39,475 nt of DNA. Origin: Terrimicrobiaceae bacterium. Lineage in GTDB: Bacteria > Verrucomicrobiota > Verrucomicrobiia > Chthoniobacterales > Terrimicrobiaceae. The translations under genes were made by a program, and so were the position numbers. The notes beneath the pieces are model-generated. The model did not search any database, was not told the origin of the DNA, and saw only the letters and a list, made by a program, of their open reading frames with translations. Positions 16,268-32,872 of this stretch are shown in pieces (positions within the stretch are counted from its first letter, which is position 1; every line of letters begins with the position of its first letter). The stretch lies in NCBI GenBank assembly GCA_021463905.1, contig JAJTZA010000057.1, positions 1-39,475 on the forward strand, given 5' to 3'.

Positions 16268-16296
16268 TTGTCGGGCGGAGAATCTCCCGCTACGGT
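16268..16296 (+). promoter_or_regulatory. Promoter of the sigma-like membrane protein gene (predicted leaderless)
   Basis: TTGTCG at 16268-16273, a 17-nt spacer and TACGGT at 16291-16296 end 7 nt before the GTG at 16304. The -10 matches the consensus only at the two leading and the final positions. It supports GTG 16304 over the in-frame TTG 16268 and GTG 16295, which lie within the promoter. Confidence 0.4.
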
Positions 16297-16303
16297 GCCT
16301 GAC

Positions 16304-17305
16304 GTGACGAACGATCCCTTTGGCGGATGGAAGGAGGCACGGCAGACGTATCTGCTGGCGTGCCTGCTCACCGGGAACGAAGAAAGCGCCTCGAAGGTTC
16401 TTCTGGAATCTGTCGGCGAAGTCTCCTCCCACCCGGAAGGCTCTGAACCCGCAAAAAAATCCCGCCTCCTTTTGGCGGCGGTGCGTCGTCGTGCATTGCG
16501 CGCCCCTTCCGGGAACGAGCTGCCTCCCGTGCTTGCCGAGCTGCGTCAACACGCGGAGCCGGGGCGCTCGCTCGTTCTGCTGGACGAGTTGGGGCTTCTC
16601 TCGGGGGATGAGGCCGCCGCGTTGCTGGGCATGAATCCCGTTGCCGCGCAGACCGCAGCGGCGGCCCTTCGCGAGGCCATTCCAGACCCCTCGGCCCTGC
16701 GACAGGAACTCGATGCGCTCGCCCCCAGCCCCTCTCCGGAATGTAGCACCGCTCTCGAAAAGCTCGCCCGGGAAGGCGGCGTTTCCAAGGCAAAAAACCC
16801 GGCGATGTGGGCGGTCATCGTCGCCCTGGTGCTTCTGGCTGGGCTGGTGGCATGGCAGCTCACCGGACGCGCGGGTGTTTTTCCTGACGAAGCACTCAAA
16901 ATCCTCGAGACAGCCCGAAAGTCCGGGCCGGAAAGTTTTTCCCCTGTGGAGATCAAGGCGGGTGCGCTTCCTGACTGGTTTGCGATGCAGGGGATTGACG
17001 GGCTTTCCATCCCTCCCGCTCTCTCGGGTCTCGATGCGGTGGGCGTTCGCGTCTTTCAGCATGAAGGTGAGACCATTGCCCAAATGGCCATCCTCGACCA
17101 GGAACGCCGCCTCTACCTCATCGCGTTTCCCGCCGCTCCATTTGGCATCCACGGCCTCCCGGCCAATGGCTGGCAAACAGCCACCACGGGACGCTTTGTT
17201 TCCGCCATCACCGAGCGCGATGGCATGTGCCTCGCCATCACCTTCCGCGGCAACGAGAAGGACATGAAAACCTTCCTCGACAGCCTCGGACGCAAAAACC
17301 TCTAA
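16304..17305 (+). CDS. Sigma-factor-like N-terminal region fused to a transmembrane segment and an outer domain
   Basis: I do not recognise a named family for this 333-aa protein. Residues 12-40 look like a degenerate ECF sigma region 2 helix. Residues 88-124 read as a sigma region 4-type helix-turn-helix: a Leu-rich helix, Leu-Ser-Gly-Asp-Glu-Ala-Ala-Ala-Leu-Leu-Gly-Met, then a second helix ending Ala-Leu-Arg-Glu-Ala. A single transmembrane segment follows at about 168-187, then a ~145-residue extracytoplasmic part resembling the sensor side of anti-sigma proteins. The HTH is Ala-rich and lacks the usual basic recognition residues, so DNA binding may be lost. No ECF sigma gene is adjacent. 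The GTG start is chosen from promoter spacing. Confidence 0.6.
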   Translation: MTNDPFGGWKEARQTYLLACLLTGNEESASKVLLESVGEVSSHPEGSEPAKKSRLLLAAVRRRALRAPSGNELPPVLAELRQHAEPGRSLVLLDELGLLSGDEAAALLGMNPVAAQTAAAALREAIPDPSALRQELDALAPSPSPECSTALEKLAREGGVSKAKNPAMWAVIVALVLLAGLVAWQLTGRAGVFPDEALKILETARKSGPESFSPVEIKAGALPDWFAMQGIDGLSIPPALSGLDAVGVRVFQHEGETIAQMAILDQERRLYLIAFPAAPFGIHGLPANGWQTATTGRFVSAITERDGMCLAITFRGNEKDMKTFLDSLGRKNL

Positions 17306-17314
17306 CCGGTGCTC

Positions 17315-17587
17315 CTATCCGCCCGCGATGGCCGGGACGATGCTGATTTCATCGGTGGCGCTGACCGGAGTGGCCTTCTCCTGAAGGAAACGAATGTCCT
17401 CATCGTTGAGGAAAATATTGACGAAGCGCCGGACCTGGCCCTGCTCGTCGCAGATACGCTCGCCCAACCCGGGAAAAGCAGCATCCAGATTCTGGAGGAT
17501 TTCGCCGATGGTCGAGCCGGCGGTTTCGACGAGTTCTTTCTCGCCGGTGAGTTTTCGAAGCGGTGTGGGAATGCGAACGGATGGCAT
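17315..17587 (-). CDS. MoaD/ThiS-family ubiquitin-like sulfur-carrier protein
   Basis: This 90-aa beta-grasp protein ends exactly in Ala-Gly-Gly, the C-terminus that is adenylated and thiocarboxylated in MoaD, ThiS and CysO. The pattern Pro-Thr-Pro-Leu-Arg-Lys-Leu-Thr near the N-terminus and Phe-Val-Asn-Ile-Phe-Leu-Asn-Asp-Glu-Asp-Ile-Arg in the middle match MoaD-like carriers. It lies 30 nt downstream of the threonine-synthase-like gene, in the same direction and behind the same SAM-I riboswitch. It therefore probably delivers sulfur to the partner enzyme rather than to molybdopterin or thiazole. No MoeB/ThiF-type activating enzyme or Mec-type protease is adjacent, so activation must be supplied elsewhere. 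Confidence 0.9.
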   Translation of the reverse strand: MPSVRIPTPLRKLTGEKELVETAGSTIGEILQNLDAAFPGLGERICDEQGQVRRFVNIFLNDEDIRFLQEKATPVSATDEISIVPAIAGG

Positions 17588-17617
17588 ATTGTTTGTTTGG
17601 TTGGTTGTTGATAAAAA

Positions 17618-18877
17618 TTATGCGGGCAGGAGTTCGTCCGCAAGGAGGGTCTCGAACTCCCGCAGACTGGGTTTGATCAGGCGGGGCTCGCCGCATTTTT
17701 CCGCAACAGCCTCAGCCGTCTTGAGTCCATGGCCGGTGATGCAGAGGACGATGCTCTCCTCGCGCGGGATGTTTCCGCCTTCGATGAGTTTCTTTGCGCA
17801 GGCCACGGTGACTCCCCCAGCCGTTTCGGCAAAAATCCCCTCCTGCTCGGCCAGCAGACGAATGCCTTCGATGACCTCCTCATCGGTGCAATCCTCGGCG
17901 AAGCCGCCCGTCTCCTTCATGGAGCGGATCGCGTAGTAACCGTCGGCAGGCGTCCCAATGGCCAGGGATTTGGCGATGGTATCGGGCTTGGGGACCGGCT
18001 TGACGATGTCGGCCCCTTTTTTCATTGCGGTGCTGATCGGCGCACACCCACTGGCCTGTGCGCCATGAACTGAAAACGGCTGCTCGTCCAAAAGCCCCAC
18101 CTGAATCAGCTCGCGGTAGGCCTTGTGAATTTTGGTGAGGAGCGACCCACTGGCCATCGGAATGACCGTGTGGCGCGGCAGCTTCCAGCCCAACTGCTCG
18201 GCAATCTCGAATCCCTGGGTCTTGGAACCCTCCGCGTAATAGGGACGCAGGTTCACATTGACAAACCCCCACCCGTATTTTCCCGCGATTTCCGAACACA
18301 GACGATTCACCTGATCGTAGGGGCCATGAATGCCAATGACGTTGGTTCCATACACCAGCGAATTGAGAACTTTATTGCGTTCGAGATCAGCAGGGATCAG
18401 GACATAACTGCGCAGACCCGCCGAAGCGGCATTGGCCGCCACCGAGTTGGCCAGATTCCCGGTCGAGGCACAGGCCACCACGGAAAATCCCAGCTCGCAG
18501 GCGCGGCTCAACGCCACCGACACCACACGGTCTTTGAAGGAAAGGGTCGGATAGTTGACCGTGTCGTTTTTAATGTACAACTCCCTGACGCCGAGGGCCT
18601 CCGCGAGGCGTTTTGCGCGTACCAGCGGAGTGAATCCCACCTGTGCTCCCACCGTGGAGGAGCCATCAATGGGCAGCAGCTCGCGGTAACGCCACATCGT
18701 TTGCGGGCGGGCTGCAATGGCCTCGCGGCTGATGCTCGCGGCAATCGCTTCGTAATCGTAGGCCGCTTCCAACGGGCCAAAGTCAAATTCGCAAATATGA
18801 ATAGCCTCCTTGGGATAGAGGCGTCCACATTCGCGGCATTTCAAATTCGAGAAGAAGGGTCTGTTTTCGTCGCTCAT
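17618..18877 (-). CDS. thrC: Threonine-synthase-like PLP enzyme under SAM-I riboswitch control
   Basis: This fold-type II PLP enzyme (419 aa) has the lysine motif Leu-Ser-Phe-Lys115-Asp-Arg, a phosphate loop Ala-Ser-Thr-Gly-Asn-Leu-Ala, and Gly-Thr-Pro-Ala-Asp. It most resembles threonine synthases that convert O-phosphohomoserine to threonine. An N-terminal zinc-ribbon-like segment has Cys14, Cys17 and Cys29, but the usual fourth Cys is absent. Two contextual facts are odd for a threonine enzyme: a SAM-I riboswitch in its leader, and a sulfur carrier as the next gene. It may be a true ThrC, or a paralogue doing thiocarboxylate-dependent sulfhydrylation toward homocysteine or cysteine. There is no Shine-Dalgarno sequence before the ATG at 18877. 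No other thr genes are near. Confidence 0.85.
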   Translation of the reverse strand: MSDENRPFFSNLKCRECGRLYPKEAIHICEFDFGPLEAAYDYEAIAASISREAIAARPQTMWRYRELLPIDGSSTVGAQVGFTPLVRAKRLAEALGVRELYIKNDTVNYPTLSFKDRVVSVALSRACELGFSVVACASTGNLANSVAANAASAGLRSYVLIPADLERNKVLNSLVYGTNVIGIHGPYDQVNRLCSEIAGKYGWGFVNVNLRPYYAEGSKTQGFEIAEQLGWKLPRHTVIPMASGSLLTKIHKAYRELIQVGLLDEQPFSVHGAQASGCAPISTAMKKGADIVKPVPKPDTIAKSLAIGTPADGYYAIRSMKETGGFAEDCTDEEVIEGIRLLAEQEGIFAETAGGVTVACAKKLIEGGNIPREESIVLCITGHGLKTAEAVAEKCGEPRLIKPSLREFETLLADELLPA

Positions 18878-18963
18878 CAGTTTGTGGTTGTTTGGGTCTC
18901 ATCAAGAGGGACAGGAGAAAACCCGGGCGACAATTTCGGCCTGGCAAAACTTGGCAAGCCGTT

Positions 18964-19096
18964 CTCATCTGTCCCGGGAAGCGCCTTGCGGCCTCTCCTG
19001 GCTGGATTTGGCACCTTGCCCCCGCGCGTCTCCAAGGAAACTTGCGGGCGGTTGCCGTGGCTTCGTCGGGCCAGTCCCTCCACCACTCTTGATAAG
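18964..19096 (-). ncRNA. SAM-I (S-box) riboswitch aptamer
   Basis: Read on the minus strand, this leader has the S-box signature in order. P1 5' strand CUUAUC (19096-19091) is followed by AAGAG, GGUGGAGGGACUGGCCC, GA-GAAGCC, GGCAACC, a variable stem with its return, AAGGUGCCAAAUCC, and P1 3' strand GAUGAG (18969-18964). The motif set is specific to the SAM-I class, which binds S-adenosylmethionine and normally shuts off methionine/cysteine genes. The aptamer ends 86 nt before the threonine-synthase-like start. I find no classical terminator with a U-run in those 86 nt. Instead, two segments at 18898-18921 can pair with the aptamer's own 5' and 3' strands. Confidence 0.93.
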
Positions 19097-19104
19097 ATGC
19101 GGAC

Positions 19105-19133
19105 ACCCTCGGGCGCAATGGCCCGGTTGTCAA
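19105..19133 (-). promoter_or_regulatory. Promoter of the SAM-riboswitch leader
   Basis: A perfect -35 TTGACA (19128-19133, minus strand) is followed by a 17-nt spacer and a weak -10-like GAGGGT (19105-19110). The predicted start, around 19098, coincides with the 5' edge of the aptamer, which supports the call. The promoter sits directly after the tadA stop at 19138. Confidence 0.5.
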
Positions 19134-19137
19134 GACG

Positions 19138-19644
19138 TCATTTTTCCGCCCGGCGGGTCGCAAAAAAATCGCGGAGCAATGCGGCGGACTCGGCGGCGCG
19201 GACGCCGCCTGTGATCTCGCAGCGGTGGTTGAGGCCGGGCATTTGGAGGAGATTGAGGAGGCCGCCCGCCGCCCCTCCCCGGGGGTCGGGGCAGCCAAAA
19301 ATGATCCGTCGGAGACGGGCGTGAATCATGGCACCTGCGCACATCGGGCAGGGTTCCTTGGTCACGTAAAGGTCGCAGTCGGTCAGTCGCCAGTCCCCAA
19401 CCGCATGTTCCGCCATGGTGATTGCGAGCATTTCCGCGTGAGCGGTGGCGTCCTTGAGCATTTCCACCTGATTCCACGCCCGCGCGAGGATTTCTCCGTC
19501 ACGCACAATGACCGCTCCCACCGGCACCTCATCCGCCGCACGCGCTTTCGCCGCCTGACGCAACGCCTCGTCCATCCACCGCAGATCCTCCCCGACCTCC
19601 ATGAACCCGCTCCAATCGCTCTTGTCCTCGCTCAAGCCGTACAT
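19138..19644 (-). CDS. tadA: tRNA-specific adenosine deaminase
   Basis: TadA (168 aa) deaminates A34 to inosine in tRNA-Arg(ACG). The zinc/catalytic motifs are His-Ala-Glu-Met and Glu-Pro-Cys-Pro-Met-Cys-Ala-Gly-Ala-Met-Ile-His-Ala-Arg, followed by Arg-Ile-Ile-Phe-Gly-Cys-Pro-Asp-Pro. Compared with E. coli TadA the N-terminus is slightly extended. A promoter-like TTGTTT - 17 nt - TTTAAA (19644-19672) overlaps the ATG at 19644 and ends 8 nt before an in-frame TTG at 19635. The true start could therefore be that TTG or the ATG at about residue 15. The SAM-riboswitch promoter begins right after its stop. Confidence 0.93.
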   Translation of the reverse strand: MYGLSEDKSDWSGFMEVGEDLRWMDEALRQAAKARAADEVPVGAVIVRDGEILARAWNQVEMLKDATAHAEMLAITMAEHAVGDWRLTDCDLYVTKEPCPMCAGAMIHARLRRIIFGCPDPRGGAAGGLLNLLQMPGLNHRCEITGGVRAAESAALLRDFFATRRAEK

Positions 19645-32483: not shown

Positions 32484-32497
32484 GGCCCTGAGGGGGG

Positions 32498-32872
32498 CGA
32501 TGGCTGTAAGCCGGATTCTGTCCGGGCCGGGGTGAGCCGACCGTGGACGGTCATTTATCTGAGCGACGAAGACCCGGAGGCGGTCGGTGGTTGCCCGAGA
32601 GCGCACCGGCCGGGCAGGCGGCCCGTTCCTCCTGTTCTGTCTTGCACCGCATGGGGTTTATCGTGCCCCCTCGCTTACGCTTGGGGCGGTGGGCTTTTAC
32701 CCCGCCATTTCACCCTTGCCCCGGTGGGGCGGTATATTTTCTGTGACACTTTCCGTCGCGGCGGGCTTGCGACCGCCGCGCCCCTGTTTTCACAGGGCAT
32801 GCTGCCTTGTGGTGTCCGGACTTTCCTCTTCTCATGGCCCTTGCGGGTCACGGAAGCGACCGTCCGCCATCG
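32498..32872 (-). ncRNA. rnpB: RNase P RNA (bacterial class A)
   Basis: On the minus strand the RNA carries the conserved P4/J region GAGGAAAGUCCGGAC near its 5' end. ACAGAA and CGGCUUACA lie near its 3' end (32505-32520), with the expected internal GUGCAAGACAGAACAGG-like region between. P1 is formed by CGAUGGC at the 5' end (32866-32872) and GCCAUCG at the 3' end (32498-32504), which sets the ends at about 375 nt. It is the catalytic RNA that trims tRNA 5' leaders. A weak promoter (TTGCCG 32900-32905, 16-nt spacer, CACAGT 32878-32883) lies at the right distance. Exact ends may differ by a few nucleotides. Confidence 0.95.

Follow-up and report, generated by a model that had tools for sequence, protein, structure and literature searches.

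What does a SAM-I aptamer control, and how, when no terminator follows it? The question is raised by a locus in the window, as we call the whole stretch of 39,475 nt that was analysed, where the minus strand carries in this order a SAM-I (S-box) aptamer (18962..19098), an 84-nt leader, a gene for a threonine-synthase-like PLP enzyme of 419 aa (17618..18877; TIGR00260, 274.9 bits) and, next downstream, a gene for a ThiS/MoaD/SAMP1-like sulfur carrier of 90 aa (17315..17587; PF02597, 64.2 bits; SAMP1, 60.5 bits). The aptamer matches the Rfam model RF00162 over positions 1-108 of 108 (82.2 bits vs a gathering score of 44.4, E 4.5e-18) and is the single match to this model in the source genome, the assembly of which is incomplete (2.04 Mb, 72% complete). 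The closest named relatives of the riboswitch-linked protein belong to Chthoniobacterales/'Spartobacteria' (Verrucomicrobiota). Elsewhere in the window, a 345-aa open reading frame (16268-17305, plus strand), convergent with the ThiS-like gene, gave no Pfam match at E 0.001, and a bacterial class A RNase P RNA (179.8 bits) was located at 32494-32872 on the minus strand.

Known SAM-I riboswitches repress in cis with SAM, and in SAM-I crystal structures the junction J1/2 contacts the ligand. Their expression platforms are usually too variable for alignment, and switching is inferred case by case. A search of 18780-19250 for intrinsic terminators returned a single terminator-like site, which is located inside the coding sequence and does not exceed background (1 found, shuffle mean 0.8). 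The prediction that no U-run terminator follows therefore holds, and the intrinsic terminator with a U-run 3' of the aptamer, typical of transcription-terminating S-box leaders, was not found in this region. Taken together, the evidence leans towards a SAM-I riboswitch of the OFF type, in which the platform would capture the aptamer's 5' side.

Pairing of the aptamer 5' strand with element B

The proposed downstream strand of the anti-aptamer helix, termed element B (18898..18908), has its 3' end 20 nt upstream of the start codon. Its sequence CUCUUGAUGAG (18908-18898) pairs with CUUAUCAAGAG (19096-19086) over 11 contiguous base pairs including one U-G, exactly as originally predicted in letters and coordinates. 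According to the limits of the Rfam alignment, the captured strand (19086..19096) is composed of a part of the P1 5' strand (19096-19091), J1/2 (AAGA, 19090-19087) and the first base of P2 (19086); the first J1/2 base, A19090, pairs with U18904. As the best duplex between the 5' strand and the post-aptamer leader, this pairing reaches -19.4 kcal/mol (z = -6.0, p = 1/201 with 200 dinucleotide shuffles). Its mean probability in the ligand-free ensemble (18830-19100, 271 nt) is 0.64, the main competitor being the same 5' strand on UGAUGAG at the start codon (P 0.34). This motif is present twice, in element B (18904-18898) and at the start codon (18879-18873), and both copies are potential partners of the aptamer 5' strand. 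A shorter fold of 226 nt (z -2.64; 1 of 200 shuffles equally stable) likewise pairs the 5' strand with element B. P1 has a probability of 0.0 in the ligand-free ensemble and, because forcing it in a constrained fold costs 11 kcal/mol at equilibrium, kinetics probably decides which structure forms. A hairpin of 10 bp is predicted directly 3' of the aptamer (18937..18961, mean pair probability 0.92).

Related leaders were gathered from relatives' loci and from loci of a family search; 75 were left after removal of exact duplicates and 67 after tails at least 90% alike had been dropped. Subsets requiring a significant 5'-strand duplex comprise 63 of the 75 or 55 of the 67. Start codons of the relatives were assigned by homology to the window protein, and in L058, L091 and L095 the automatic choice of the P1 3' strand, which had struck element B, was reset by rule. 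The SAM-I core motif, detected by pattern, is situated 128-252 nt upstream in 74 of 80 thrC-like relatives' loci, and for 3 of the 6 loci without it the available upstream stretch is no longer than 111 nt. Within L001-L099 it occurs within 450 nt in 93 loci, those without it being L043, L054, L061, L065, L070 and L073.

Compared to shuffles, the 5' strand of a leader (P1 5', J1/2, P2 base) pairs with the tail of the same leader at p<=0.05 in 63 of the 75 distinct leaders; 45 of the 75 are at the shuffle floor of 1/201 and 12 miss the p<=0.05 level. The distance from the element to the start codon has a median of 12 nt (interquartile 9-17, range 7-36; n = 55 non-redundant leaders with a significant duplex). 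In ligand-free folds, the 5' strand is placed on the tail in 34/75 leaders and on the P1 3' strand in 6/75 (mean P>0.5).

For a comparison by column, a maximum of 60 nt upstream of the start codon was aligned with MAFFT for the 67 non-redundant leaders with the 5' strand withheld, and the element B homologues lined up unaided. In a fixed register, 82.1% of the pairs are canonical, compared to a mean of 77.5% and a maximum of 79.4% in 5000 permutations of partners among leaders, and sliding the register by 1-3 columns lowers the value to 42-49%. Taken separately, the P1 portion and the J1/2+P2 portion both exceed all of 2000 permutations. Positions 7-12 of the 5' strand, which cover the inner P1 base, J1/2 and the first P2 base, are paired in 97, 94, 90, 97, 78 and 100% of the 67 leaders. 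The values are 49-96% for the rest of P1 and 69-73% for three more positions in P2. The pairs kept at positions 7-12 indicate that element B reaches the junction and is therefore more than a copy of the P1 3' strand. At the first J1/2 base and its partner, A-U is found in 25 leaders, G-C in 31, C-G in 4 and G-U in 3, while 4 are unpaired.

These data also bear on a rival reading, in which the match arises incidentally, from mimicry of the P1 3' strand or from base composition. The P1 5' strand and any mimic of the P1 3' strand are complementary by construction, and 12 of the 75 leaders show nothing beyond chance; however, the well-kept pairs are not confined to P1 but include J1/2 and the first P2 base, the partners track the changes in J1/2 from A-U to G-C and C-G, and both the number of leaders at the shuffle floor and the drop in slid registers speak against it, so that we consider an incidental origin highly improbable.

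Mapped onto the tree built from the 67 proteins, the J1/2 base underwent at least 10 changes and its partner 13. Independent contrasts numbered 3 on well-supported branches and 7 on all branches, with averages of 1.8 in the expected direction, 0.0 in the opposite direction and 1.2 without difference, and the phylogenetic support is thus thin. One leader with A-U (L093) belongs to a well-supported clade in which the five remaining leaders have G-C, and L042, L046 and L051 (C-G) stand beside L033, L040 and L068 (G-C) at a fork with support of 86. The window leader has A-U among mostly G-C neighbours, in a placement that is weakly supported. Altogether, the pairing of element B with the aptamer 5' strand is conserved and covarying in related leaders. 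An alternative structure mutually exclusive with P1, as originally proposed, is thereby predicted by folding and supported by conservation and covariation among relatives. An alignment of the 67 leaders extends through the platform, which covaries with the junction of the ligand site; in contrast, a 2026 study modelling SAM aptamers together with their platforms gives, in its available text, no significant aptamer-platform covariation (PMC13273304).

The 3' edge of the aptamer

The original prediction contained a second arm, in which UUUUCUCCUGUCCC (18921-18908) pairs with GGGACAGAUGAGAA (18975-18962) at the aptamer 3' edge, and regarded both arms as nested and compatible parts of one long anti-aptamer helix. 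The letters and coordinates of the second arm are correct and the pairing is possible on paper, consisting of 7 bp, a 2x2 mismatch and 5 bp; it is the best duplex that the window's 3' edge forms with the tail (p = 0.023 against shuffles). In the ligand-free ensemble, however, its probability is 0.00, as the 3' edge (18978-18965) is taken up by the segment 18922..18933 (18933-18922, mean P 0.96). Moreover, C18908 is used by both arms and is thus a contested base.

Among relatives, capture of the 3' edge reached p<=0.05 in 4 of 67 leaders with 3.4 expected, which equals chance. The 8-nt P1 3' strand alone has a better-than-chance partner in 13/75 leaders (about 4 expected), seven of which (L078, L079, L080, L083, L084, L086 and L088) belong together in the tree, L084 being a near-duplicate that is absent from the tree itself. 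The clade L078-L088 may therefore possess a nested arm. As 3'-edge capture is at chance and the excess for the P1 3' strand stems largely from one group, we reject one long nested helix as a general feature. Conservation in homologous leaders, a check named beforehand, was thus passed by the first arm and mostly not by the second.

Identity of the gene downstream of the aptamer

The direction of regulation depends on what the gene 17618..18877 encodes. Sequence searches label the enzyme threonine synthase, and of the relatives listed with a solved structure, 5 of 6 sequences are threonine synthases. In the family, ThrC is found above the cut-off in all 26 genomes, and the 19 of 26 with RF00162 are exactly the 19 that carry the window's type of ThrC-like gene (273-287 bits, or 215 for one partial sequence). 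A second, better-scoring ThrC (about 311-325 bits) is present in 17 of these 19, the exceptions being G003 and the window's own genome, in which, at 72% completeness, no other strong ThrC was detected. The single strong match in this incomplete source genome had suggested that the gene is the sole threonine synthase, an assignment we discard in view of the second ThrC in the other genomes. Furthermore, a ThiS-like match is situated at most 400 nt downstream in 74 of the 78 relatives' loci with enough sequence. Elsewhere in the phylum, at L113, which was the one locus checked of 15 that are not thrC-like, a SAM-I aptamer precedes metY, encoding homocysteine synthase (604 bits).

In Streptomyces albulus, the homocysteine synthase MetM and the sulfur carrier gene metO have been described together with a SAM riboswitch before metM (Hasebe et al., as cited in the available text of PMC12172450), and a cyanobacterial ThrC shares 51.6% identity with this MetM (same text). 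The same layout, a ThrC-like enzyme gene adjoining a sulfur carrier gene with a SAM riboswitch upstream, was found at the window locus; it occurs here in a different phylum, and the likeness is one of gene layout. This gene context, consisting of the second ThrC, the ThiS-like neighbour, metY at L113 and metM of S. albulus, makes a homocysteine synthase and repression by SAM likely. On these sequence data, the gene most likely encodes a putative MetM-type homocysteine synthase, and the switch would front a gene for a probably little-known homocysteine route.

The riboswitch gene and MetY, the latter counted as present when scoring above its cut-off, appeared anti-correlated in the 26 family genomes (11 with the gene and no MetY, 3 with MetY alone, 8 with both, 4 with neither), and we set this aside as suggestive only. 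In G016, G017, G021 and G023, neither MetY above the cut-off nor the pair of ThrC-like gene and SAM-I aptamer was found. The leader of the ThiS-like gene (17588-17617, minus strand) and its homologous sites are G-poor and CA/CU-rich; the 60 such leaders checked have a mean anti-SD energy of +1.34, with 1/60 at -5 or below, and thus represent an SD-less type of start.

Proposed switching and the fate of the start codon

In the model that we favour, element B, transcribed just before the start codon, would pair in the absence of SAM with the unpaired J1/2, which may serve as its toehold, and would next displace P1 and the base of P2, dismantling the SAM site, while the aptamer 3' edge would pass to a separate downstream segment. 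In the presence of SAM, J1/2 and P1 would be locked and element B excluded, leaving B and the remaining leader free of the aptamer. SAM would control the choice between these structures and would lower expression, the latter because the gene is most likely of the MetM type. This strand-exchange model, in which the toehold would be the ligand-binding junction itself, is directly testable. How expression is lowered is the most uncertain part of the model, with occlusion of the start as one candidate and Rho-dependent termination as its main alternative.

In the window, the freed UUGUCGC (18927..18933) is a candidate sequestor of the start region, predicted to pair with GCGACGA (18867..18873) in codons 2-4, just 3' of the AUG (18877-18875), and thereby to cover the start when the aptamer is folded. 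Tail-only folds of the bound-state leader give 18933-18927 with 18873-18867 at P 0.68-1.0, but pairing of the start region with the tail does not by itself exceed chance (p = 0.249 against shuffles). Among relatives, significant partners of the start region (p<=0.05) were found in 8 of 67 leaders with 3.4 expected, a weak excess. A general sequestor closing the start with SAM bound seemed indicated at first, as pairing of B leaves the stretch from -8 to +8 more open than it is with SAM bound in 37 of 63 leaders, against 3 with the opposite difference. This difference equals the null obtained by shuffling the stretch from P1 to B (0.150 vs 0.143, p = 0.71, n = 55), and shuffling element B left bound-state openness unchanged (p = 0.69), so that a general sequestor gains no specific support. 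When B was not forced, the stretch from -3 to +5 was more open in the free state in 19/75 leaders and in the bound state in 13/75; compared to whole-tail shuffles, the bound-state start was less open in 36/75 and more open in 17/75. The stretch from -35 to -16 was more open in the bound state in 47/63 leaders, which on its own would favour translation.

Anti-SD pairing of -5 kcal/mol or better was detected at 4 of 17 gene starts of the window, picked by hand, in 26 of the 75 leaders and in 1 of 60 leaders of ThiS-like genes; upstream of the window gene no SD match reaches this level. The anti-SD energy of element B averages -4.3; an exact complement of the 5' strand gives -1.6 and shuffled B gives -3.8. 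Element B was considered as a hidden Shine-Dalgarno sequence and dismissed, being no better than its wobble-permuted versions (-4.6, p = 0.27).

Start occlusion and Rho are both ranked ahead of a switch that SAM turns on. With Rho, the SAM-bound state would free a C-rich leader on which Rho loads, and transcription would end in or before the gene. The lack of an intrinsic terminator fits this, runs of at least 5 T being present in 6 of 67 tails, and Rho-type riboswitches are known (available text of PMC10907184). The original prediction had described the stretch before the start codon as C/U-rich and G-poor, which is borne out by 18 C and 8 G in the 50 nt upstream of the start; C exceeds G in this interval in 60 of 75 leaders, and the ratio is still 903:689 outside element B in leaders with a significant duplex. 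However, whatever pairs with a purine-rich aptamer strand will be C/U-rich in any case, the ThiS-like gene also has a G-poor leader, with no aptamer in it, and Rho would not need element B to sit so near the start codon (median distance 12 nt, interquartile 9-17, n = 55). We consider Rho possible, though on the unlikely side.

A switch in the ON direction would have the aptamer 5' strand, held in the helix with element B, block the ribosome site of a gene that has no evident SD sequence until SAM pulls the strand back, and O-phosphohomoserine would then be fed into threonine when methionine is plentiful. Such control would fit an enzyme placed where the methionine and threonine routes part, as is threonine synthase, the function by which sequence searches label the enzyme, and the title of a cited paper states that plant threonine synthase is activated by SAM. 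The helix 3' end also lies close to the start (median 12 nt), the -35 to -16 stretch opens in the bound state, and element B surpasses the exact complement of the 5' strand in anti-SD energy. Against it, 17 of 19 genomes with the gene also hold a better-scoring ThrC (about 311-325 vs 215-287 bits), a sulfur carrier gene adjoins, element B is no more Shine-Dalgarno-like than its wobble-permuted versions, and SAM-I switches are known for repression, all of which makes activation by SAM doubtful.

Repression through capture of the 5' strand, our preferred reading, has partial counterparts. It shares with SAM-I (S-box) riboswitches the full-length match to RF00162 above the gathering score and a predicted strand exchange with a downstream platform, and differs in the missing intrinsic terminator and in the captured strand, which is the aptamer 5' side with J1/2. 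SAM-IXcc of the Xanthomonas campestris met operon is, like the present leader, a SAM-I riboswitch in a Gram-negative; its control is mainly translational, the SAM-bound state hiding the start codon (PMC7270179, available text). It comprises SD and anti-SD hairpins and tRNA sensing, whereas the window gene has no SD match, and capture of the 5' strand, proposed here, is not mentioned in the available text of that study. A toehold and branch migration, with the ligand blocking invasion, are common to strand-exchange riboswitches generally (PMC10907184, available text); what sets the present proposal apart is that the ligand-site junction J1/2 would be the toehold and that the invading strand would come from beside the start codon. 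In the largely open-access literature searched, we found no mechanism of a SAM riboswitch in Verrucomicrobia and, in the text available on SAM riboswitches and threonine synthase/thrC, no description of the present arrangement.

Across the phylum, SAM-I was detected in 23 of 288 genomes, yielding 23 new loci, of which 8 precede a thrC-like gene and 15 do not. The element is patchy in this set (p<=0.05 in 2 of 8 thrC-like and 4 of 15 other loci). L123 and L125, from another family of the phylum, have a similar complement of the 5' strand beside one A-C mismatch in J1/2 (p 0.003 and 0.083), preceding genes that by eye resemble metY. L126, L120 and L127 show apparent intrinsic terminators 3' of the aptamer, a hairpin followed by a T-run as judged by eye, unlike the group of the window; L126 additionally has a very strong 5'-strand complement (z -6.7). 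In L105-L107, inspection by eye suggests a separate AAAGGA-type SD, an upstream UUCCUU that could act as anti-SD and a P1 3' side, GAGAGGAAG, that could hold UUCCUU, a classical OFF layout beside a B-like element.
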